From positions 1-30,803 of IMG/VR virus record IMGVR_UViG_3300017917_003628: a stretch of DNA of 30,803 nucleotides; one strand, 5' to 3'. The notes beneath the pieces are model-generated. The model did not search any database. It was not told the origin of the DNA and saw nothing but the letters and a program-made list of their open reading frames with translations. The translations under genes were made by a program, and so were the position numbers. Positions 1 through 16,654 of the stretch are shown piece after piece (the stretch's first letter is position 1; every line of letters starts with the position of its first letter). Origin of the DNA: a virus.

Positions 1-310
1 ACTACCCCGGTTCCGCAGTTTCTTAGGCTGCTAAAGCAAACTTGCTGTCATTGACAGCTACGTCTACTTCGTAGAACTTAAATGCTGATTTTGCATTTAG
101 ATTATTTGCTTGATTTACGGTCATCGCCTACCGTGTTGCCGTCTCTACTATCTAACCCTGTCGAAACCATGACTGGCCCATTATAAAGCACACTACCCAC
201 GTAACCTGATCAATGGCGAAGGAGTTGAACCTTCTTTGACAATGTGCTTTATGGTGGACCAGGCGGGAGTCGAACCCGCGTCCAGAATTCCTTCGCTTTG
301 AAGGGATTAC
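1..310 (-). ncRNA. ssrA: Circularly permuted two-piece tmRNA
   Basis: Ribosome-rescue RNA. On the minus strand the acceptor piece comes first (about 310 to 252): a T-arm with GCGGG/CCCGC stem and TTCGACT loop at 279-263, then CTGGTCC, discriminator A and an encoded CCA at 254-252. An intervening segment follows (251-180), then the coding piece starting GGGCCAG at 179 with the canonical GGTTTCGACAGGG nearby. GGGCCAG and CTGGTCC form a 7-bp acceptor stem with a G3-U wobble, the alanyl-tRNA synthetase identity element. The tag reads VAVNDSKFALAA then TAA (61-23) if the resume codon is GTA; the exact resume codon is uncertain. Acceptor before coding piece is the permuted arrangement known from alphaproteobacteria. 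The 3' end of the coding piece lies at or beyond the window edge, and I could not trace all helices or pseudoknots. Confidence 0.9.
180..251 (-). other. tmRNA intervening segment with T-arm-like hairpin
   Basis: This is the spacer expected to be removed when a permuted tmRNA precursor matures into two pieces. Its flanks contain a 10-bp inverted repeat, ATAAAGCACA at 183-192 against TGTGCTTTAT at 243-252, which would pair the spacer ends and bring the two mature termini together. Inside, on the minus strand, 234-218 reads GAAGG-TTCAACT-CCTTC, a perfect 5-bp stem with a 7-nt loop of the TPsiC type. No other tRNA arms are visible, so this is not a complete tRNA. It may be a processing-enzyme recognition mimic. 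Confidence 0.6.
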
Positions 311-318
311 AACAATTC

Positions 319-396
319 TTATTTGCCCTTGCGTTTGCGTTGAGCAGTTCTAACTGCTCTCATAGCACGAGCTCTAACACTTTTAATCTTAGGCAT
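319..396 (-). CDS. 25-aa highly basic microprotein (fourth of four)
   Basis: Begins MPKIKSVRARAMRAVRTAQR and ends KRKGK. Eleven of 25 residues are Lys or Arg and none is acidic. Its start shares one base with the stop of the gene before it (TAATG) and no Shine-Dalgarno is visible, so translation is probably coupled. The Ala/Arg-rich amphipathic middle and KRK-type tail resemble the three preceding microproteins, suggesting a paralogous family. Function is unknown; nucleic-acid or ribosome binding is only a guess from charge. It ends about 9 bases before the tmRNA acceptor piece, so the tmRNA may share this transcript. Confidence 0.55.
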   Translation of the reverse strand: MPKIKSVRARAMRAVRTAQRKRKGK

Positions 397-500
397 TATT
401 TTTTTCTACGAACTACTCGTTTAGCCATTGCGCTAACTGTCTTAGCACGTGGCGGTTTTTTGCCTTTAAGAATTTGGCTAACTCTACGTGGACTAGGCAT
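396..500 (-). CDS. 34-aa highly basic microprotein (third of four)
   Basis: Begins MPSPRRVSQILKGKKPPRAK and ends RVVRRKK. Thirteen of 34 residues are Lys or Arg, none acidic. A good ribosome-binding site (AAAGGA, 7 bases before ATG) supports translation, and that site overlaps the end of the preceding gene. The stop overlaps the next start as TAATG. The last 14 residues (AMAKRVVRRKK region) match the pattern of the sister microproteins: Ala/Met, then paired basic residues, then a basic tail. No family is recognised. Confidence 0.6.
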   Translation of the reverse strand: MPSPRRVSQILKGKKPPRAKTVSAMAKRVVRRKK

Positions 501-502
501 AA

Positions 503-577
503 TTATTTCCTTTTCTTTAAAACTCTACGTGCTGTTGCACGAATTGAGCGGGGGTGGTGGGCTTTAAATTTAGCCAT
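503..577 (-). CDS. 24-aa highly basic microprotein (second of four)
   Basis: Begins MAKFKAHHPRSIRATARRVL and ends KKRK. Ten of 24 residues are Lys or Arg, plus two His, none acidic. It starts two bases after the stop of the previous gene in a TAATTATG junction, the same junction that separates it from the next gene. No separate Shine-Dalgarno is visible, so coupling is likely. The IRATARRVLKKRK part closely resembles the IRQAAMRATKKRS end of its upstream neighbour. Function unknown. Confidence 0.55.
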   Translation of the reverse strand: MAKFKAHHPRSIRATARRVLKKRK

Positions 578-579
578 AA

Positions 580-648
580 TTAACTACGCTTTTTGGTTGC
601 TCGCATTGCTGCTTGACGAATACGTTGTTTTGCGATTTTACGTGCCAT
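580..648 (-). CDS. 22-aa highly basic microprotein (first of four)
   Basis: Begins MARKIAKQRIRQAAMRATKK and ends RS. Nine of 22 residues are Lys or Arg, none acidic. A GGAG ribosome-binding site lies 6 bases before ATG, inside the end of the upstream membrane microprotein gene. This is the first of four tandem basic microproteins that look related by composition and by a shared Ala-Arg-rich helix plus basic tail. It is too short for a database domain call; function unknown. Confidence 0.55.
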   Translation of the reverse strand: MARKIAKQRIRQAAMRATKKRS

Positions 649-649
649 T

Positions 650-745
650 TTATTCTCCATCTGGAAAGTTGTCGTGATAATCTATGAGCCAATATATGGC
701 GATACAACCTATTAAAGCAATAATGATCCAAAATAAGTAGCTCAT
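650..745 (-). CDS. 31-aa single-pass membrane microprotein
   Basis: Begins MSYLFWIIIALIGCIAIYWL and continues with an acidic, polar tail (IDYHDNFPDGE). One hydrophobic segment covers about residues 3-20, with the tail containing five acidic residues, in contrast to the basic proteins downstream. It is the first gene after a sigma70-type promoter (751-779) and its stop (TAA) abuts the next start (TAAAATG). No strong Shine-Dalgarno is seen. It could be a holin-like, antiholin-like or superinfection-exclusion peptide, but nothing in the sequence decides this. Confidence 0.6.
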   Translation of the reverse strand: MSYLFWIIIALIGCIAIYWLIDYHDNFPDGE

Positions 746-750
746 AGTTT

Positions 751-779
751 ATTGTATTATATTTACCCATTAAAGTCAA
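751..779 (-). promoter_or_regulatory. Sigma70-type promoter for the microprotein cluster
   Basis: On the minus strand TTGACT (779-774) is followed after 17 bases by TACAAT (756-751). Transcription would start a few bases before the membrane microprotein ATG at 745, leaving almost no leader. A 14-base string GTAAATATAATACA within it recurs upstream of csgF (13162-13176), so a phage-specific promoter overlapping the same bases is also possible. Confidence 0.55.
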
Positions 780-1804: not shown

Positions 1805-2152
1805 ATGACAGAAATTGTAGATTTAGTTAATAAGTATGGTTTTCCAATTGTCATGGCAGTTGGAATGGGCTACATCATTAAATATGTGTGGGAATGGTCA
1901 ACAAAAGAAGTTAAGCCAGTTATTAGTGAAGCAAACACAGTTTTAATTGCACTAATAGATCGCATTCGTATGTTGGACAATGACTTGATTCGTTTGAATC
2001 AAAAAGTTAATACTGTTCTACATCTTCGTGGTAAGATTATTGAATCAGATCGTGTTATGGAACAAATGAAAGTGGAAAAAGAAGCTAATGCAAAATTTGA
2101 AGATGCAGCACATTTAGATGATAAAAAGTCTGCAGCTAGTGGAGAATCATAA
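1805..2152 (+). CDS. Small membrane protein, paralogue B
   Basis: 115 aa, starting two bases after the previous stop in a TAATTATG junction. It resembles the first gene of the operon (835-1116): MTEIVDLVNKYGFPIVMAVG begins a membrane segment to about residue 30, followed by an amphipathic stretch (IALIDRIRMLDNDLIRLNQK) and a longer charged tail rich in Lys, Glu and Ala. The pair probably arose by duplication and diverged. A holin, holin partner or membrane scaffold is possible; no catalytic motif is seen. Confidence 0.7.
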   Translation: MTEIVDLVNKYGFPIVMAVGMGYIIKYVWEWSTKEVKPVISEANTVLIALIDRIRMLDNDLIRLNQKVNTVLHLRGKIIESDRVMEQMKVEKEANAKFEDAAHLDDKKSAASGES

Positions 2153-2295: not shown

Positions 2296-3504
2296 ATGAA
2301 AAAGCGCAATTACACACAAGACACAGTCCGCAAGTTACAGGGCTCATTACAAATTGAGCATACTTTAGCCAAACGTGGTGCTATCAAACTACGCGAACTA
2401 CTAGCAAATGAACCATACGTTAATACGCTAGGAGCATACAGCGGTCAACAAGCCGTTCAACATGCCAAAGCAGGACTCAAAGCAATTTATCTATCAGGCT
2501 GGCAAGTAGCCGCAGCCGCGAACACAGCAGGACAAACATATCCAGATCAAAGTTTGTATCCTGTAAATTCAGTACCAACAATCGTTAAGCAAATTAACAA
2601 TGCTTTCCGTCGTGCTGATCAAATTGAACACTCAGAAGGTAATCTAACTACAGATTATTTCCTACCAATCGTTGCCGATGCCGAAGCAGGATTTGGCGGT
2701 GCTTTAAATGCATACGAACTAATGATGGCGATGATCGAGGCAGGTGCAGGCGGCGTTCACTTTGAAGACCAGTTAAGTAGTGAAAAGAAATGTGGACACT
2801 TAGGTGGTAAGGTTTTAATTCCTACTAGCCAAGCTATCCGTAATTTACAAGCCGCACGACTAGCTGCAGATGTAGCAGGTGTTGACACAGTTATTCTAGC
2901 ACGTACAGACGCAGAATCAGCAACACTTATTACTAGCGATCATGACCCACTAGACAAGGATTTTATTATCAATGAAAGAACTGAAGAAGGTTTCTTCAAA
3001 TTTAAAAATGGACTCGATGCTTGTATCGCAAGGGGACTTGCGTATGCACCATATGCAGACTTATTATGGTTTGAAACCAGCACACCAGATATACAACAAG
3101 CCAAAAAATTTGCAGACGCTATCCACGCCGAGTTTCCTGATCAGATGCTTGCTTATAATTGCAGTCCTAGTTTTAATTGGCGTAAGTTTTTAAGCGAAGA
3201 AGAATGCGAAACGTTCCAACGTGAACTAGGTGAACTAGGATATAAGTTCCAGTTCATTACACTAGCAGGTTTCCATAGTGTAAACTTAGCAACCTTTGAA
3301 CTTGCTGAAGCGTACAAAGCACGTGGCATGGCCGGCTACAGTGAAATGCAACAACGTGAGTTTGCTGCACAAGAACGTGGCTTTACAACAGTCAAACATC
3401 AACGTGAAGTAGGTGTTGGTTACTTTGACTTAATCAGCGAGGCAGTTGGTGCAAGTAGTACAGTAGCAAACAAAACTTCAACGGAGGCGGATCAATTCCA
3501 CTAA
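2296..3504 (+). CDS. aceA: Isocitrate lyase
   Basis: Cleaves isocitrate to glyoxylate and succinate, the first step of the glyoxylate bypass. At 402 aa it is slightly shorter than typical bacterial enzymes (about 430). The catalytic loop KKCGH is intact at residues 164-168 (Cys166), preceded by the metal-binding region ADAEAGFGG (about 127-135) and an [20 protein letters not shown] segment near residues 67-86; NCSPSFNW is present in the C-terminal half. An AAGGAG ribosome-binding site precedes the ATG. The desaturase gene follows after one base, so the two are cotranscribed. Isocitrate lyase is a rare phage cargo gene; SAR11-type hosts are known to use the glyoxylate bypass, which makes an auxiliary metabolic role plausible. 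Function call is confident, role inferred. Confidence 0.95.
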
Positions 3505-3505
3505 T

Positions 3506-4207
3506 ATGATTATTTTAATCTACACCTTAGTGATAGTACAAATCACTATTGCTTGTGTTACTTTGTATCTACATCGTAGTCAAGCACACAGAGCTGTAAC
3601 ATTCCATCCTGCGGTTAGTCATTTTATGCGTTTCTGGTTATGGCTAACAACAGGTATGAATACTAAGGAGTGGGTTGCTGTACATCGCAAACATCACCAA
3701 GCAAGCGACACACCTTTAGATCCTCACAGTCCACAAATTTACGGAATATGGACTGTATTGTTTAAAGGTGCTTTCTTATATATTAAAGCAAAGCAAGATC
3801 CAGAAGTTATAAAGTTAGGGGCAGGAACTCCTAACGATTGGATAGAAAATAAAGTTTATACTCCCCACCCCTTTGCAGGAATTCTATTGATGTTGGTTAT
3901 TGACCTTGTTCTTTTTGGTCCTGTTGGGTTAATAGTGTGGGGAGTTCAAATGATATGGATTCCATTCTGGGCCGCAGGTGTTATTAACGGTCTAGCACAT
4001 TGGATAGGTTATAGAAACTACAGTACAAAAGATACTAGTCGTAACTTATTACCTTGGGCGATTTGGATTGGAGGCGAAGAACTCCACAACAATCATCACG
4101 GTGACGGAGCAAGTGCTAATTTTCGTCATAATTGGTACGAAATAGATGTTGGCTGGATCTACATCAAGGTATTAGAAAAATTAAAACTAGCTAGTGTTAG
4201 AAATTAG
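3506..4207 (+). CDS. Fatty acid desaturase (delta-9 type)
   Basis: 233 aa integral membrane di-iron enzyme that introduces a double bond into fatty acyl chains. Three histidine boxes are intact: H-x4-H at residues 23-28 (HRSQAH), HxxHH at 60-64 (HRKHH) and HxxHH at 194-198 (HNNHH), plus NGLAH at 161-165. Hydrophobic segments lie near residues 1-20, 38-50 and 122-160. It is shorter than many family members (about 260-380 aa) and lacks any fused cytochrome b5, so it would need an external electron donor. It is one base after aceA and overlaps the convergent peptidase gene by 11 bases at the 3' end. It could remodel host or membrane lipids during infection (inference). Confidence 0.9.
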   Translation: MIILIYTLVIVQITIACVTLYLHRSQAHRAVTFHPAVSHFMRFWLWLTTGMNTKEWVAVHRKHHQASDTPLDPHSPQIYGIWTVLFKGAFLYIKAKQDPEVIKLGAGTPNDWIENKVYTPHPFAGILLMLVIDLVLFGPVGLIVWGVQMIWIPFWAAGVINGLAHWIGYRNYSTKDTSRNLLPWAIWIGGEELHNNHHGDGASANFRHNWYEIDVGWIYIKVLEKLKLASVRN

Positions 4208-7194: not shown

Positions 7195-9606
7195 TTATTG
7201 ACGAACTACAGTAGTACAACCCGCTGGATTTGTACAACTCTGTATAAGATTAAATGATTTTCCGCCTGTTTGTTGTAAATCAACGTTAGATGCTCCGCCA
7301 GAGTTTGTTAAATCTAGATTTGCATTATTTGAACTGCCGCCTGTTTGATTTGAGGTTACTGTGTGCCCGTTGCCGGTTAAGTTAACATTGAGGTAATGTT
7401 GCGCTGTTCCTGATTGCATTGATGTTACGGTATTACTAGAGCCACTAATGTTAGAAAACAGCAGTTGATTAGCATTGCCGCTTTGTGTATGATTGATAGT
7501 ATTTGAACTTCCTAAAATTGTAGTTTCTACATAGTGACTGCCGCCGGTGTTTGACTGGTTAGTAGTTAAACTATTATTCTGTCCATTTATTGAAGTATTC
7601 AAATAATTAGATCCTGATTGTGTTAAGTTAACAGTATTTGAACCAGTTCCACTCAGTGTCATTTCAATTTTATTTGGGCCGCCAGATTGGGTAACAGTTA
7701 TGTTATTGTAGTTACCAGATACTTGATCTATATACAAAGCGTTGTTATAAGTTTTTGTACTGTTATGCCATGTGTCAACTTTAGTTTGTTGTCCAGTGCT
7801 AATGTTTATACTACCGGATCCACTGCCAATTACTTCTTGACCAGTGCTGTTAGTCATTGTGATTGTTCCGCCTTCAACAGTTGGTCCTAAATTAACTGTT
7901 GATCCAGTAATGTTGACCACACTAGAATTTGAATATACAAATCCGCTAGTATCTACTGTATAATCAGTTAATGTTCCTGTTGTGTATGCATTATTAGAAA
8001 TAGTCTTTAGACCGGCACCGTAATCCCAATAAAACGTATTTCCAAAACCTCCAGTTGTGTTCCAGTACCATGCTTCTATGTTATAAGTTTGGCCTGCTAC
8101 AACATCCATCCAACCACTGCTAGTAGTTCCTACTATTGCTTGATATCTTATAGTATCGTTTTGGTTGATAATAGTATTTCCGTTAATACGTAGTACAAAT
8201 CCGTCATCTGTATTATTGTAAAAGTATAGTCTATACACACTACCAGCAGGATGTGCGGTAGTTATAGGAGCAGTAATGGTTCCATAATATCGCATAACTG
8301 TTCCATCGTTGGCCCCTATTAGGCTGTTGTCATTATTTGGCAAGTCAGAATTAGTAGCAATAAAAATACCGTTCAATGTAACTCCGCTGTTTACTGGATT
8401 ACCGTAATTGTTACGATTAGTTGATGGAGTATGGTAGGTAAAGTTCCAAGCACAGATACCTAATACACAACTATAATTTTTAGGATCATATCTCCATACT
8501 TGGAAATTAAGTCCACGTTGGATAGTTTGTGACGTGGATGTTGCTGTACCATTTGATTCTACAAAAGTAGCACTACCGTCTGCAGGTGTAACTGTGTTAA
8601 TGGGGGTGTTAATTGTTGTTAGTGTTGTTCCTGATATTGTGTTAGTGGTGACTGTGCTGGCAACTTTAGTTTGATACAATGTTTCTGTACCATTAGTTAA
8701 CGTGCTAGTTCCATCGCTATAAGTTGTTGTAGTAACAGGTGTTCGATATACTGATGTAACACCGGGACTGGTTACTACTGATCTATATGTATATGTTGTA
8801 GTAGTTCCTGTTACAGTTACAGTTGGTGTAGTAGATGCACCACCGCCAGTTCCAGCGTTAGCATCAGCAATAGTTAAGGTGCTAGTATATCCACCTGCTG
8901 TTCCGCTAGTAGTACCACCAGTAGCACTATAACCACCACCGCTGATGTTAGCAGTAACACCTGTTGCTTGTGTAGTACACATTACCGAACCACTAGTTGT
9001 TCCGCAAGCACCCCATCCAGTTGTACTGTTCCAACCTTGTGCCATTGTTCCTCCATAACTACCAAACTCTGGGTTATAGACTCTGTTAGTGCTGTCCCCG
9101 GAGATAGTCAATGTTGGTAATCTCCATTGTGCTCCGTAATCGCCTGCCCACCAAGACCCGTCAGTGCCAATCATTTCTACTTTCATATATGCAACAGAAC
9201 TACAATCTCCCCCACAACTGTTTACAGTCATACTAATTGTTACCCAAGGAGCAGAGTTATCACCTGGAGCAGTACTCCAAGCATTCATCTGGGTTAAATT
9301 TTGACTGTAGTTAGTTTGTTGTGTATAAAGTTGTGTACCAGAAGAATTATAAAATGTTAATCGTATATTACCCGTATCGTGTTCAAGTGGACGTCCGCCG
9401 CCACCGTGAGCATCAACTGTAAAAGTAATTGACGAAGCACTACGCATAGTGTTGTCTAACACAACATATTGGCTAATAGTACTACCAGCCGCATAGCTCA
9501 TGTTGGCGCTGTTATAATTTGTTCCTACATCAAACGCAAATGCCTTAGTGCATGAAACTAAGATAGACATTAAAACAAAAAATAGTATTGTAGGTAGTCG
9601 CATCAT
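7195..9606 (-). CDS. Secreted adhesin with PA14-like domain and curlin repeats
   Basis: 803 aa, start overlapping the FecR gene stop (ATGATG). Signal peptide about residues 1-24. Residues 25-175 form a beta-rich domain with a Cys pair (131, 135). A Ser/Thr/Gly-rich low-complexity linker spans about 200-365. Residues 435-530 resemble a PA14-type carbohydrate-binding domain, with the typical NNTDDGFVLRINGNTII core and aromatic-rich ends. From about residue 600 to 790 the sequence is a run of imperfect 20-25 residue repeats of the SxNxxxxxQxG type, as in curlin subunits. It is likely exported through CsgG and built into or onto the fibre as a tip or binding subunit. The domain mix is unusual; receptor is unknown. 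Confidence 0.65.
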   Translation of the reverse strand: MMRLPTILFFVLMSILVSCTKAFAFDVGTNYNSANMSYAAGSTISQYVVLDNTMRSASSITFTVDAHGGGGRPLEHDTGNIRLTFYNSSGTQLYTQQTNYSQNLTQMNAWSTAPGDNSAPWVTISMTVNSCGGDCSSVAYMKVEMIGTDGSWWAGDYGAQWRLPTLTISGDSTNRVYNPEFGSYGGTMAQGWNSTTGWGACGTTSGSVMCTTQATGVTANISGGGYSATGGTTSGTAGGYTSTLTIADANAGTGGGASTTPTVTVTGTTTTYTYRSVVTSPGVTSVYRTPVTTTTYSDGTSTLTNGTETLYQTKVASTVTTNTISGTTLTTINTPINTVTPADGSATFVESNGTATSTSQTIQRGLNFQVWRYDPKNYSCVLGICAWNFTYHTPSTNRNNYGNPVNSGVTLNGIFIATNSDLPNNDNSLIGANDGTVMRYYGTITAPITTAHPAGSVYRLYFYNNTDDGFVLRINGNTIINQNDTIRYQAIVGTTSSGWMDVVAGQTYNIEAWYWNTTGGFGNTFYWDYGAGLKTISNNAYTTGTLTDYTVDTSGFVYSNSSVVNITGSTVNLGPTVEGGTITMTNSTGQEVIGSGSGSINISTGQQTKVDTWHNSTKTYNNALYIDQVSGNYNNITVTQSGGPNKIEMTLSGTGSNTVNLTQSGSNYLNTSINGQNNSLTTNQSNTGGSHYVETTILGSSNTINHTQSGNANQLLFSNISGSSNTVTSMQSGTAQHYLNVNLTGNGHTVTSNQTGGSSNNANLDLTNSGGASNVDLQQTGGKSFNLIQSCTNPAGCTTVVRQ

Positions 9607-10712
9607 TTTTGAATTAAAGTAATAATAGTATTACCGCCTTGATTAACACGATTTTTAAATTCTATTGTACCTTGTGTTTGATATATTGTACTGTTTTGTG
9701 TTAGAGGAGTTCGAACGCATTGTATATCAGCACCGTTATCTCGACAAAGTTCAACTGCGGTGTCGTCTTTATAAGCAACGATTCCACTAGATTTTCTATA
9801 GTCAGGAAGTACTGGATCAACTGGTTCTAAAAACTTTTCGTCCAACGCATTGCCTACAAGATCAAACAAACTAGCTAAGAATCCATTATCTAAAAAATTC
9901 TTACTTAGTTTATCTTCGTATATCATGCTAGCTTGTACATCAAGCCAATTCTCAAGTCCTTTCTCTTTTAAAAAGTCAAAATCTAATGGGTTGAAAGATC
10001 TTTTCTGCTCTTCCTGAGCTTGTTTAATTTCTCTTGGAGGACTGACTATCAGCATATTACTAATAGCCATTTCGCTTAAATTTAAAACTTTAGGAGGAGT
10101 AGGAGGTACTGTTCTACTTTGTACTTTAGTAACTTGGAAGGGTTGATTTAAAATAACAGTACCAACATCGTTACTAACCTCAATCTGTCCTGTTTTGCAG
10201 TTTGATTCAATATCTTTTACGCTGCGGGTTGGTCTATCATTAGGACAACTTGGTAATAAAATAATAGTGCTTTCGCCTAATTCGTCTACTGTAGCAGCAA
10301 AGTCAGTACCCCGAACAGCGACGGTTGCGCTAGGGGTGTTAAGTGCTACATTTTGTGGAGAATTTTTAGCAATTTGTCCAGACGCATAGCGTACTGTGCC
10401 TAGAGCAATTTTAGCACCTAATTTTCCAGACTTAGACTTTGGATCATACACAAAGTCGTCTATTACAAGTTTAGAATTTTCATTTACTTGGACTTTAGTG
10501 TCATCCTCAAATGTTATACCTACTTTTCCTTGTTGGGTCCTGATAGCATCATTCATTTCTACTCCTGTACCTTTTGCTGCGGTTAGAGTTGAATTCTGCC
10601 TAGTAATAGTTGGAGGTGTATTTAATTGTTCCGTTACTTTTCCAATCGCCGCAATTGATTTTGACGATATGCTTAGTAACGGAACGCATAATATTGCCAG
10701 CCATAATTTCAT
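9603..10712 (-). CDS. FecR-domain periplasmic protein
   Basis: 369 aa. Signal peptide about 1-22 (ends SIAA). A FecR domain covers about residues 25-170: beta-rich segments with FEDDTKVQVNENSKLVIDDF and the hallmark NTPSATVAVRGTDFAATVDE. The C-terminal 200 residues are unassigned. It has no N-terminal anti-sigma region, so it is not a classical FecR regulator; stand-alone FecR-domain proteins commonly accompany CHASE2 cyclases and may bind or present a surface ligand. It lies between the curlin gene and the adhesin, with both junctions very tight (9 bases and overlapping), so all are one transcript. Confidence 0.85.
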   Translation of the reverse strand: MKLWLAILCVPLLSISSKSIAAIGKVTEQLNTPPTITRQNSTLTAAKGTGVEMNDAIRTQQGKVGITFEDDTKVQVNENSKLVIDDFVYDPKSKSGKLGAKIALGTVRYASGQIAKNSPQNVALNTPSATVAVRGTDFAATVDELGESTIILLPSCPNDRPTRSVKDIESNCKTGQIEVSNDVGTVILNQPFQVTKVQSRTVPPTPPKVLNLSEMAISNMLIVSPPREIKQAQEEQKRSFNPLDFDFLKEKGLENWLDVQASMIYEDKLSKNFLDNGFLASLFDLVGNALDEKFLEPVDPVLPDYRKSSGIVAYKDDTAVELCRDNGADIQCVRTPLTQNSTIYQTQGTIEFKNRVNQGGNTIITLIQK

Positions 10713-10721
10713 GGGGCCCTC

Positions 10722-11705
10722 TTAGTTTTTCTGTAATATTGTTAGCGTATTATGACCGCCACTCAATCTAATATTAGACAAGTTAGAAACTGATCCCTGT
10801 TGTGTGATACCAATAGTATTGTTAGAACTTCCTGCTAATAATTCTAAATTTGTACTATGTCCGGTACCCGCGCCACCGCTTTGGGCTAATGTGATAGTGT
10901 TATCATTACTGCCGCTGTTTAACTTAATGTTGGCATAATGATCAAACCCACCGCTTTGTGTTACGCTAGTTGTGTTGCCAGAACCAGTAATATCGATCAA
11001 CACTTGTGCGCCAGTAGAACCGTACGCACTTTGAGTCACACTAGTGATATTAGAAGCGCCAAAACTTGTTACACTAACTTGTCCCTTATTTCCAGTCATA
11101 TTAAGTGTTGTTTCGTTTCCTCCACCACCTGTTTGATTAATAACAGTTGTTGTTTGGTCAGCGTTAATAGTACCTGTGAATATGTTTCCGCTTCCGCCAG
11201 CAGTATTTACATTAAGCTGATTAGATGTACCAGTCATGTTTAATGTAGTAGTTGCGCCACCGTCTTGAGTGATGCCAATGACATTTCCACTTGCTGTCCC
11301 TTGTCCATTATTATTAATGTTAATATAACCAGTGTTTCCGCCGCCAGTGACTTGATAATTTAAGTTTACGCCAATGTTAGAATAATTTGTTACAGATCCA
11401 CCTTGTGTAGAATTAATACCTAATGCTAAAATGTTATTTGCACCAGTCTGTTCAATATTAATAGTTTGTGCGTTACCTGTTAATTTAGATGGATCGGTGG
11501 TGCCACCAGCAGTACCATTTAATAGAATACCTTTTACTCTATTTCCAGAACCATCTTGCGTCATAGTGATAGTTGAATTATCACCCGACTGATCTATATA
11601 GATGCTGTTGTCAGCCGCCATACCCAATGTTGTCATTGCAGACAACACCAGAATTGTAAGTAATTTTCTCGACAACTTACCAGCGCCTGTGCTACTTTTT
11701 TTCAT
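10722..11705 (-). CDS. csgA: Curlin-repeat (CsgA/CsgB-like) fibre subunit
   Basis: 327 aa from the ATG at 11705, chosen because AAGGAG lies 8 bases upstream; a longer reading from 11819 overlaps csgG and lacks that support. Signal peptide about residues 1-31 (ends GMA). The mature protein is an array of imperfect repeats with SxNxxxxxQxG spacing, such as SIYIDQSGDNSTITMTQDG and NTIGITQQGS, the pattern of amyloid-forming curlin subunits. It is about twice the usual CsgA length (about 150 aa), with at least ten repeat-like units, and ends ILQKN. It is very poor in Cys and charged residues. Expected to be exported by the CsgG pore and to polymerise outside the cell. Whether it is nucleator or major subunit cannot be decided. 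Confidence 0.8.
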   Translation of the reverse strand: MKKSSTGAGKLSRKLLTILVLSAMTTLGMAADNSIYIDQSGDNSTITMTQDGSGNRVKGILLNGTAGGTTDPSKLTGNAQTINIEQTGANNILALGINSTQGGSVTNYSNIGVNLNYQVTGGGNTGYININNNGQGTASGNVIGITQDGGATTTLNMTGTSNQLNVNTAGGSGNIFTGTINADQTTTVINQTGGGGNETTLNMTGNKGQVSVTSFGASNITSVTQSAYGSTGAQVLIDITGSGNTTSVTQSGGFDHYANIKLNSGSNDNTITLAQSGGAGTGHSTNLELLAGSSNNTIGITQQGSVSNLSNIRLSGGHNTLTILQKN

Positions 11706-11757
11706 TTTTCTGCTCCTTGGTGTTTTATTATTATTGTAGTACACCAGATATTTGTTT

Positions 11758-12594
11758 TTACTTCTGTTCTTCCCTGCCTTTCTCTGGCTTAACGTCGGAC
11801 TCTGTATAATCCCAAACACCCTTACGTTTGCCTTCCTTAATTAATTCAACAACAGCCATTTCAATAGTTGCTTTAGTTGCATATGTTCCTGGCTCATTTA
11901 TTGTTAATCCCGCTTCTGCTTCAAATGCTTGTGTTCCTTTATCAAAAAACTTCAATGCTGATACACTATCAGCACTACTCATGATAGTTTTTTGAACTGT
12001 TACACTTGCTAATACCTTACCAGTGTTTACGCTAACTGCTCGTAAACTTACGGTAACTGTGTCTGTACTCCATTGTGTATTTTTACCTATTCCAAAAATA
12101 CGCTGACCAATTCCGCCGCTTGTTGTTATTTGATCATAGCCTATGATTCCGCCTTCAAAAATAATGCCTGCAAATTGCATTGGCAGTAATGGTTTTGCGT
12201 CTTTTCCTTCATATGCTTCGCGCATTTGACGGATAATTAGTCGTTCTTTAGTTAAGTTATCAATACCTACACGCTCAACAACATCAAACCACTTACCTTG
12301 CCCAACATTTTGTAATGCTTGAATTAAAAATGTTTCGCCACCTTGTGTAACCGCTGTTGATAAACTAGCGATATTTGCTTGAGGTCTACGCTGTCCCGTT
12401 TTATCCATAAAACTGTAAACTGCTACACTTAATGGTTTTCCAACACTTGGTGGAGGTATCATTTCAAATTCTTTTTTAACCCCCTTCATTTGTGTTGTAA
12501 CTTCTGGATCTTTATCAAGGATACCAGTAGTTTGAACTACAGCGCACCCTGATAATAAACTTATAATTGCTAAGGAAATAATAGTTTTTTTCAT
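11758..12594 (-). CDS. csgG: CsgG curli secretion channel
   Basis: 278 aa outer-membrane lipoprotein that forms the nonameric curli export pore (type VIII secretion). Lipoprotein signal with lipobox LLSGC (Cys16). Core CsgG features follow: PPPSVGKPLSVAVYSFMDKT, FDVVERVGIDNLTKERLIIR, GGIIGYD and VSVNTGKVLASVTVQKTIMS. Length is close to E. coli CsgG (277). It starts 4 bases after csgF and precedes the curlin gene. CsgE and CsgD are not seen in the window. Phage-borne csgF/csgG genes are known in pelagimyophages (established), so the pair supports such an affiliation. Confidence 0.95.
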   Translation of the reverse strand: MKKTIISLAIISLLSGCAVVQTTGILDKDPEVTTQMKGVKKEFEMIPPPSVGKPLSVAVYSFMDKTGQRRPQANIASLSTAVTQGGETFLIQALQNVGQGKWFDVVERVGIDNLTKERLIIRQMREAYEGKDAKPLLPMQFAGIIFEGGIIGYDQITTSGGIGQRIFGIGKNTQWSTDTVTVSLRAVSVNTGKVLASVTVQKTIMSSADSVSALKFFDKGTQAFEAEAGLTINEPGTYATKATIEMAVVELIKEGKRKGVWDYTESDVKPEKGREEQK

Positions 12595-12597
12595 AAC

Positions 12598-13143
12598 TTA
12601 GTTCCCCGGCATTTGGAATGAGCTTAATGGAACGTAAACACAACTCATTCCATTATCTTGACAACTAGCTGTACTTGGATTAGTAGCAGTAGGATCTGCT
12701 ATTTTTAGCATAATGCAAGCACCATATGCTGTAGAACAGTTAGCATCGGTTGTGCTTAATACTTTAGACCAACTAATATAGTTGCCTTGAAAATCTATTG
12801 CACCTTGACAATTTGTGTTTGTGCTTGCAGTACAGTTATTGTTAGCAAACATAGCAGTTGCTACGTTTTGTGATATTTGTGCGTAGATACGTGATTCTAA
12901 GTTACTAACAAACTTAGCAAGGTTGGTATTTTTCTTATCAGATGCTTCTTTGTCAATAGCCGCTTGAATCTTATCGGCATTTGCTTTTTGAGCTGTTTGT
13001 TCTAAGTTATATATTGTTAATGTATGTGAACTATAACCTATGCCGTTAAAACTAGGACTTTTAAATTGAAAGTCGCCAATAGGCGCTGCCAAAACAACTG
13101 AAGGCAATAGTGTTAATAGTAAAAATTGCTTTATCTTGGACAT
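12598..13143 (-). CDS. csgF: CsgF curli assembly factor
   Basis: 181 aa; signal peptide about 1-19 (ends VLAA). The mature N-terminus PIGDFQFKSPSFNGIGYSSH matches the CsgF pattern of an (F)xFxxPxF segment, which in E. coli inserts into the CsgG constriction and positions the nucleator. This is followed by a helical region and a Cys-containing C-terminal half with probable disulphides. It is longer than E. coli CsgF (138 aa). First gene of the minus-strand surface operon, preceded by a GGGAG ribosome-binding site. Confidence 0.88.
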   Translation of the reverse strand: MSKIKQFLLLTLLPSVVLAAPIGDFQFKSPSFNGIGYSSHTLTIYNLEQTAQKANADKIQAAIDKEASDKKNTNLAKFVSNLESRIYAQISQNVATAMFANNNCTASTNTNCQGAIDFQGNYISWSKVLSTTDANCSTAYGACIMLKIADPTATNPSTASCQDNGMSCVYVPLSSFQMPGN

Positions 13144-15086: not shown

Positions 15087-15771
15087 CTATATCTGGGAAC
15101 AAGCAATCCTGTATGAAAACACGTACATCTTCTTCGTCTAGCCCTAAACTAGCCATAACACGCGGTGTATGTGGGTTTTGTTTTTGATTAAATGCATAGT
15201 AATTCTGTGCATCTTTAGTATTTTCTGCTGTGTTATTTGTTTCTGCTACAGAATCTAAGTAATGTGCTAAAGTATCTTTAGCCATTAGGATAATTTGTTC
15301 TAGTTCTTCTTCTGCTTGTACATTTGCAGCCGCTACCATGCTAGGACTAAAAATATTAGTTGCCCACTCTGGTAGTTCGCGAACTTTACGCCACTCTAAA
15401 TTACTAACATAATCTGCAAACCATTCCATCATAGGATGGTTAGGATCTCCTGCTTTGCTGTAATCGTGGAAGCAACCGGTAATTTTGTTCTTACCTGCTA
15501 CAACGTCAAATCCGTATATTGGTGCTGGGTTATGTAAGTGCGGGAAGATGCAACAATGCATCATCCAAAGTCCTTTTGTATCTCGTGCATCAACTACATC
15601 AACGTGAGCACGACGATAAGCATTGCTGGTCCAAACACGATTGACCCAACCAGGCTGATTAAACCGATCCATTCCAGGTTCAAAAATTTCATTCCCAGTC
15701 CTGCTAAATTCACTCTCCAGGAGATGCTGAACTTCGATTAGGGTATCCCATACTTTACTCTGACTGGGCAT
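15082..15771 (-). CDS. pcyX: Ferredoxin-dependent bilin reductase (PcyX/PebS-like)
   Basis: 229 aa enzyme of the HY2/PcyA family, reducing biliverdin IX-alpha to a phycobilin with electrons from ferredoxin. The core MMHCCIFPHLHNPAPIYGFD keeps both PcyA active-site positions: His in MMHC (PcyA His88) and Asp in YGFD (PcyA Asp105), with the same 17-residue spacing; PebS enzymes differ at the His. That, and the apparent non-cyanobacterial host, favour PcyX, a phage-encoded reductase reported from marine phages of presumed alphaproteobacteria and shown to make phycoerythrobilin. The product is inferred, not shown. Its start lies 17 bases inside the heme oxygenase gene with AGAGG upstream, so the two are coupled. 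No ferredoxin gene is in the window. Confidence 0.85.
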   Translation of the reverse strand: MPSQSKVWDTLIEVQHLLESEFSRTGNEIFEPGMDRFNQPGWVNRVWTSNAYRRAHVDVVDARDTKGLWMMHCCIFPHLHNPAPIYGFDVVAGKNKITGCFHDYSKAGDPNHPMMEWFADYVSNLEWRKVRELPEWATNIFSPSMVAAANVQAEEELEQIILMAKDTLAHYLDSVAETNNTAENTKDAQNYYAFNQKQNPHTPRVMASLGLDEEDVRVFIQDCLFPDIV

Positions 15772-16336
15772 CGGGTGCCTCTTCTGCTTGATCGCCGACG
15801 ATAGTCATCATTTCTTCAAATAACCTTGCGGCAAATTCAAAAGCAATTTTTGCTTCTTCTGCCATATCGTCATTTAGTCTTGTGCGAATGACATCTTTAA
15901 TTGTTTCAGGATCATCACCGAACTGATAGTATTTCCCAGATCCGGGTACACGTTTAGCAATCATTTGTCCGCCTGACAAATCTCCCATGTGTCTAACATA
16001 CACATGAGCCATAATCTTATTCGGGTCTTGGTATATTGCTTTAAGATAATTTATATAATCGTTTACTACTGGTAGGATTGTTGGCTTTCCGTACTTTTCT
16101 TCATCCCACAATTCAACATAATCTGCAAGTATTGCCGGTGCTCTACGTATATCTGGAATTCCGTCAAATAGTCGATGCATCATAGCAAATGCTTCAAGTA
16201 CATCATACATCGGATGTTGATTAATTAAGTACGTTGCGTAGATTTTAGGATCTACATGACCTGAAAATAAAACTTTTACAAATGGCCTTGTTTCTGCTCT
16301 TCTGTGCTGCTCGTGTGTAAGTTCTTTAAGACTCAT
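15755..16336 (-). CDS. ho1: Heme oxygenase
   Basis: 193 aa, cleaving heme to biliverdin, CO and Fe2+ with ferredoxin as reductant. The proximal heme ligand is His11 in EQHRRAE (family pattern HxxAE), and the distal helix signature YVRHMGDLSGGQ is intact at about residues 108-125. The C-terminal 15 residues are acidic. Its ATG overlaps the ClpS stop (ATGA) and its end overlaps the bilin reductase start, so heme to bilin conversion is encoded as a coupled pair. In a non-photosynthetic host the purpose is unclear: iron release, CO or bilin signalling, or removal of heme are possible. Confidence 0.93.
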   Translation of the reverse strand: MSLKELTHEQHRRAETRPFVKVLFSGHVDPKIYATYLINQHPMYDVLEAFAMMHRLFDGIPDIRRAPAILADYVELWDEEKYGKPTILPVVNDYINYLKAIYQDPNKIMAHVYVRHMGDLSGGQMIAKRVPGSGKYYQFGDDPETIKDVIRTRLNDDMAEEAKIAFEFAARLFEEMMTIVGDQAEEAPDAQSE

Positions 16337-16635
16337 TCTTCTTCCAATTTAATTTGTAATGGGTAACCATTTGATCTAGCCTGAGATGTTGCCTCTACTG
16401 CTTTTGCTTCAGCTATTTCAAAACTATAAACGCCAGCAATACCACTACCTGTTTCGTGGACTTGTAACATAATGTCTCTAGCAGTATCTACAGTATGCTT
16501 GAATATTTCAACTAAGACAGAAATAACAAATTCCATAGGAGTAGAATCGTCGTTAAGTAAAATAACTTTCCAACGCTTTGGTTCGGAAATCTTTACTTTA
16601 ATTTTTTCATCTAGTTGGATGTCTGTACTTGGCAT
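16333..16635 (-). CDS. clpS: ClpS adaptor
   Basis: 100 aa. ClpS binds the ClpA N-domain, delivers N-degron substrates to ClpAP and disfavours degradation of ssrA-tagged proteins. The family signatures are intact: WKVILLNDDSTPMEFVISVL (residues about 22-41, with the NDD and Met-Glu-Phe-Val of the N-degron pocket) and VHETGSGIAGVYSFEIAEAK. The first 15 residues are the usual acidic flexible arm. Phages of marine bacteria sometimes carry clpS; here it stands beside hsp20 and dnaK and in a genome region that also encodes a tmRNA. Confidence 0.95.
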   Translation of the reverse strand: MPSTDIQLDEKIKVKISEPKRWKVILLNDDSTPMEFVISVLVEIFKHTVDTARDIMLQVHETGSGIAGVYSFEIAEAKAVEATSQARSNGYPLQIKLEEE

Positions 16636-16654
16636 TTTACTCTCTTTTAGTAGT

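Follow-up and report, generated by a model that had tools for sequence, protein, structure and literature searches.

Four very short, strongly basic open reading frames (ORFs) lying head to tail in front of a permuted, two-piece tmRNA in a T4-like myovirus are almost certainly real and conserved protein genes. They belong to microprotein families that are unannotated in PHROGs and NCBIfam and have an informative genomic neighbour. The DNA is an IMG/VR virus fragment of 30.8 kb, the whole of which was analysed and is henceforth referred to as the window. The first-pass annotation had described four tandem ORFs of 22–34 aa at positions 319–648, devoid of acidic residues and with 38–44% Lys plus Arg. 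All four are present at exactly these positions on the minus strand (uP1 to uP4, Table 1), both statements on composition were borne out, and the net charges range from +9 to +14. The two good ribosome-binding sites were likewise recovered, in front of uP1 and uP3. As to the junctions, TAATTATG does connect uP1 to uP2 and uP2 to uP3, and TAATG connects uP3 to uP4, whereas TAAAATG, also listed as a link between microproteins, joins the upstream membrane ORF to uP1. The start of uP1 at 648 was favoured over one at 660 because relatives such as MTRPIAKKRLREAAKRATKKRQG begin at the same place. No terminator-like site was detected between uP4 and the next gene, and the evidence for the promoter is weak, as the region contains five sigma-70-like sites where shuffles contain 2.8. 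A longer protein with an end similar to the membrane peptide of the window (IYWLMDWKKHHPDGE) precedes a pair of family F and family B genes in another record (L233).

Table 1. Features of the window discussed in the text (positions are those of the window; sequences in one-letter code).
Feature	Position	Strand	Details
uP1 (family F)	580..648	-	22 aa, MARKIAKQRIRQAAMRATKKRS; ribosome-binding site GGAG
uP2 (family B)	503..577	-	24 aa, MAKFKAHHPRSIRATARRVLKKRK
uP3 (family A)	396..500	-	34 aa, MPSPRRVSQILKGKKPPRAKTVSAMAKRVVRRKK; ribosome-binding site AAGGA
uP4 (family E)	319..396	-	25 aa, MPKIKSVRARAMRAVRTAQRKRKGK; start overlaps uP3 stop
Membrane peptide, first ORF of the run	650..745	-	31 aa, MSYLFWIIIALIGCIAIYWLIDYHDNFPDGE; phrog_12128 (function unknown), E 1.2e-4
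Sigma-70-like promoter	751..779	-	TTGACT-17-TACAAT, upstream of the run; 10/12 matches
Permuted two-piece tmRNA	23..314	-	RF04321, 133.5 bits, E 2.9e-26; beta_tmRNA, 119.4 bits
tmRNA, acceptor piece	about 314-252	-	ends in CCA
tmRNA, intervening segment	251-180	-	
tmRNA, coding piece	from 179	-	
tmRNA, putative tag frame	23..94	-	AKSAFKFYEVDVAVNDSKFALAA plus stop; from ORF 124-23 and comparison with other phage tags
Two small paralogous proteins	835-1116 and 1805-2152	+	phrog_18771
Isocitrate lyase-like gene	2296-3504		
Fatty acid desaturase	3506-4207		PF00487
csgF/csgG cluster	7195-13143	-	with FecR-like gene and curlin-repeat protein
Heme oxygenase	15755-16336		PF01126
ClpS adaptor	16333-16635	-	PF02617, E 1.4e-29

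Given their short length, and the existence of a 107-aa frame on the opposite strand (244–567, +), the four ORFs might be thought chance frames or the shadow of this antisense ORF. This is hardly credible. ORFs of 20–40 aa with at least 35% Lys/Arg and no Asp or Glu number four in the window, against a mean of 0.14 and a maximum of 2 in 200 order-1 Markov shuffles of the window, and a tandem pair of such ORFs was found in none of the 200. The low pN/pS values given below speak against chance as well, and the antisense frame is interrupted by stop codons in most relatives, for which reason it was also rejected as a gene in its own right.

Homologues were searched for with degenerate DNA patterns over viral stretches. 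The family A (uP3) pattern was found in 36 stretches, that of family B (uP2) in 52 and that of family F (uP1) in five, with homologues of the last in records L222, L233, L237 and L283; a further family, C (MAYRAK...AAVRRQLRKRK), which is not in the window, was detected in 66. Homologues of uP4 (family E) occur in L171/L172, L193 and L398; they turned up beside family A and also in tmRNA stretches that were fetched without reference to the microproteins. Over all compared columns pN/pS was 0.11 for A, 0.28 for B and 0.23 for C; since the search patterns fixed some of the residues, the fair values are those of the pattern-free columns, 0.17, 0.27 and 0.24–0.58 (the last depending on length class). 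Pooled values for F (0.25) and E (0.41) derive from few sequences. By these ratios (0.11–0.41), the four families of the window are under purifying selection. In family A, residues Q9, P16, P17, M25, A26 and R28 are invariant in 29 distinct genes while their codons vary, and these six are columns that the search pattern had left free, out of 18 invariant columns in a protein of 34 aa. The first-pass annotation had suspected a conserved family that gene callers would miss and had proposed examining relatives for conservation and purifying selection; homologues of all four frames do occur in independent contigs, neither broken nor unconserved. The families seem to have gone unseen because proteins of 20–38 aa fall mostly below the limits of gene callers.

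At least seven short families (A to G, genes of about 20–38 aa) could be distinguished. The families recombine into clusters that hold one to four microprotein genes in varied order, and the genes are mostly joined by overlaps of 4 or 1 nt or separated by gaps of 1–3 nt (-4, -1, +1, +2, +3). Each of the six genomes read nearly in full carries a single cluster. Families A to F have the tail A-x-A-[KR]-R-x-x-[KR]-K in common, mostly beyond what composition explains, and a Lys/Arg run ends nearly every member. The idea that the four proteins are paralogous held in part: against composition-matched shuffles, pair alignments gave z values of 6.1 (A-E), 5.7 (A-B), 5.3 (B-C) and 4.5 (D-E), whereas family F, to which uP1 belongs, was weaker (best z 3.4) and G did not join. 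On 20–35 residues, such similarity could reflect common descent or convergence, and the two cannot be separated. One record (G014) also has, at 16555–16641, a separate 28-aa ORF rich in Lys, Ala and Pro (MAPAKKKPAAKKAPAVKKPRAPRKPKAV) that resembles histone H1-like tails.

Comparison with known proteins returned next to nothing. The microproteins matched no profile in PHROGs (E up to 10) or NCBIfam (E up to 1) and none in Pfam above its cut-off, and profile searches revealed no resemblance in sequence to known RNA-binding families beyond charge. Plasmids yielded a single match at chance level (31% identity). In the PDB, a sequence search found nothing for family A, and the A2 profile retrieved only designed repeat proteins and chance-level matches. 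The patterns of families A and C had no occurrence in a collection of 84,980 prokaryotic species. Searches of phages by tblastn with single and concatenated microproteins gave no match; this is a weak test owing to low-complexity filtering, and nine reference phages were therefore searched with profiles. The profiles found no member in T4, HTVC008M, Melnitz, S-PM2, P-SSM2, Syn9, Xanthomonas phage X1, Stenotrophomonas phage Marzo or phage C48C1; they did recover known copies in control records, although the A2 profile is not fully sensitive, the family E copy of G014 having escaped it.

The tmRNA begins 4 nt past the uP4 stop on the same strand. It was missed by ARAGORN; the RF04321 match covers the full model (1–213) and far exceeds the gathering cut-off of 47 bits. 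Its acceptor stem, read from the sequence, has 7 bp (GGGCCAG / CTGGTCC-ACCA) and includes a G3-U70 pair, the pair recognised by alanyl-tRNA synthetase. The tag frame ends in NDSKFALAA, a hydrophobic LAA-type terminus, and would encode 23 aa provided that translation resumes at the GCA at position 94. This is long, the usual tmRNA tag being 10 aa; in related phages, tag lengths between 10 and about 28 aa occur, and an insert of the type KFYEVDVA or EYFQVDFDVTA recurs among them. A search of 25 larger records for an SmpB gene came up empty, and the SmpB of the host presumably serves the phage tmRNA. The closest described locus is that of Methylophilales phage Melnitz (PMC9004378), which likewise combines a two-piece phage tmRNA with a T4-like genome and csgF/csgG. 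Permuted tmRNAs are in fact present in four of the nine reference phages (Melnitz, HTVC008M, X1 and Marzo), which differ from the window in that neither these families nor microprotein-type ORFs were found upstream.

Both this neighbour and a second recurrent position had escaped the first-pass annotation. Among 37 records chosen by family A or in a first comparison, a permuted tmRNA is present in 22, and each of these has the cluster upstream of it, within about 1 kb and often at 5–12 nt. Records chosen by family B showed a tmRNA match in 23 of 42 cases (two of them below cut-off, at contig ends), with the cluster at most 1.5 kb upstream in 16 of the 23. Taken together, a cluster is found upstream of the tmRNA, within 1.5 kb, in 38 of the 45 tmRNA-bearing records with these families; several of the records are near-duplicates, so these counts are not independent events. 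The final microprotein stop precedes the tmRNA by 4–12 nt in many records. The second position, taken by many other clusters, is directly upstream of iscU (L053, L178, L192, L221, L223, L235 and others), and in one record (G073) the microproteins, near 36.6 kb, do not adjoin the tmRNA at 44.3 kb. In L162, L163, L176, L222 and others a cold-shock gene (MVTGKVKWFND...) stands just before or after a tmRNA-linked cluster.

The reverse comparison, starting from tmRNAs, gave a different picture. Stretches fetched by the acceptor sequence of the window, mostly permuted-looking, had the families upstream in none of 78 cases, and those fetched by another acceptor sequence had microproteins in about 16 of 70. 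With these counts, the candidate role of constant partner of the permuted tmRNA was rejected. Five solitary microproteins, belonging to families C, D, E and G, do stand immediately in front of tmRNAs that had been retrieved by no criterion other than tmRNA sequence. As most phage permuted tmRNAs lack them, the microproteins are not obligate tmRNA cofactors: they favour the tmRNA site, yet the phage tmRNA does not need them.

Apart from this run, the window carries nrdA/nrdB, iscU-like, iscA-like and dnaK-like genes along with the others in Table 1. CsgG shares 47% identity with the Melnitz protein and 49% with that of Pelagibacter phage HTVC008M, for NrdB no phage in the reference collection exceeds 61% identity, and many close relatives are in IMG/VR. 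Going by those relatives, the carriers would be uncultivated, mostly freshwater-type phages. The isocitrate lyase-like, desaturase and heme oxygenase genes are probable auxiliary metabolic genes. One of the two phrog_18771 proteins (1805–2152) also weakly matches a holin PHROG at its N-terminus. The phage encodes a ClpS adaptor in addition to the tmRNA; as ClpS is known to divert ClpAP from SsrA-tagged proteins, an interaction between the two is possible. The csgF/csgG region further codes for an 803-aa protein with repeats similar by eye, and its curlin-repeat protein scores just under the cut-off (Curlin_rpt, E 8e-4). Phage curlin genes were dropped as a novelty, since the Melnitz record already annotates curlin-repeat proteins, contrary to the report that csgA and csgB are absent from that phage (PMC9004378).

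What the microproteins do can be approached only indirectly; the first-pass annotation had offered binding to RNA, DNA or ribosomes as a guess from charge. We tentatively favour, at somewhat less than even chances, a role as small proteins of host takeover that act by binding nucleic acid, with structured RNA of the translation machinery as the most probable target. The four ORFs would then be a modular operon of cationic, helix-forming microproteins whose run may continue into the permuted tmRNA as one transcript. Binding would take place through the Ala-Arg helix and the terminal Lys/Arg tail, the RNA target could be the ribosome, rRNA or tmRNA, and uP3 would contribute a two-helix head resembling the recognition-helix half of HTH_3. 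We infer that the frames are translated, that they share a transcript with the tmRNA and that their products bind nucleic acid, and likewise that the target is RNA and not DNA, and the time of expression: binding from charge and helix propensity, and translation-machinery RNA from the position at the tmRNA together with the early phage proteins that have been placed on host ribosomes (PMC10914614). Phage-encoded small ribosomal proteins, e.g. bS21 in Melnitz, are similarly small and basic; the microproteins are much shorter and match none of the ribosomal-protein profiles of Pfam at E up to 10. The recurrent iscU site weakens any role specific to tmRNA.

The main rival, less probable but a serious possibility, is that the peptides bind or compact DNA, in the manner of protamines, nucleoid proteins or small regulators, the tmRNA being a mere insertion site. 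DNA binding would fit the charge and the head of uP3 equally well, and clusters are also found upstream of iscU, where there is no RNA gene. In uP3, residues 3–27 align to positions 22–46 of the 55 of HTH_3 (PF01381), the recognition-helix half, and 13 of 14 family A members match this domain (best E 0.001). An AlphaFold model of uP3 (pLDDT 91.7) has helices at 4–11 and 22–33, where HTH_3 helices 3 and 4 would be, and on the DNA-binding reading this recognition helix would read DNA. Every score, however, is under the gathering threshold of 23 bits (uP3 scores 17, a family member 19.3); the resemblance extends over just half of the domain, with the first helices missing relative to HTH_3/XRE proteins and a strongly basic tail added. 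Neither Foldseek (PDB, BFVD) nor VIA matched the two-helix model to any solved or viral structure. Moreover, compaction driven by charge does not call for six invariant residues at pattern-free positions.

A narrower proposal is that the free basic helices fill the mRNA entry channel like the C-terminal tail of SmpB, tuning or blocking host tmRNA while the same run yields the phage tmRNA. The tails of SmpB, ArfA and ArfB are, like the microproteins, short and positively charged; they bind the ribosomal mRNA channel by their positive residues, those of SmpB and ArfB turn helical on the ribosome, and trans-translation is inhibited by a synthetic peptide of the SmpB tail (PMC8012679). The synteny of clusters and permuted tmRNA, and the failure to find a phage SmpB in 25 larger records, would agree with such a role. 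Against it, the microproteins do not match the SmpB profile (PF01668) at E up to 10 or the tails in sequence, have no DKR motif and almost no acidic residues, and are free peptides with no folded domain attached; clusters away from tmRNA, such as that of G073, also speak against it. Nothing in the sequences singles out an SmpB-tail mimic, and a role wider than tail mimicry is suggested by the clusters at iscU and by the many tmRNAs that have no microproteins. We consider this proposal unlikely. Equally improbable is its extension, in which the phage module would combine a permuted tmRNA of its own with a variable repertoire of free peptides resembling the SmpB tail and so redirect ribosome rescue from host to phage during infection.

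The peptides might also matter little, if translating short basic frames regulates tmRNA processing or iscU translation. The last stop is just before the tmRNA or iscU, as leader ORFs would have it, and the Lys/Arg runs at the ends may slow ribosomes. Leaders would not need one to four different genes, though, and the low pN/pS, the invariant residues far from the 3' end and the freedom of synonymous change indicate that the peptide itself is selected, which leaves this explanation quite unlikely. Cationic peptides acting on membranes, as an aid to lysis or to exclude other phages, would suit the charge and the membrane peptide upstream; helical hydrophobic moments are mostly no higher than in composition-matched shuffles and hydrophobic content is low, and we regard such an activity as very improbable.

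That 18 columns are invariant in a phage protein of 34 aa points to a partner under constraint, probably a component of the host. The synteny offers an entry point to two questions, for what reason two-piece tmRNAs are found in aquatic phages and whether these phages manipulate ribosome rescue.
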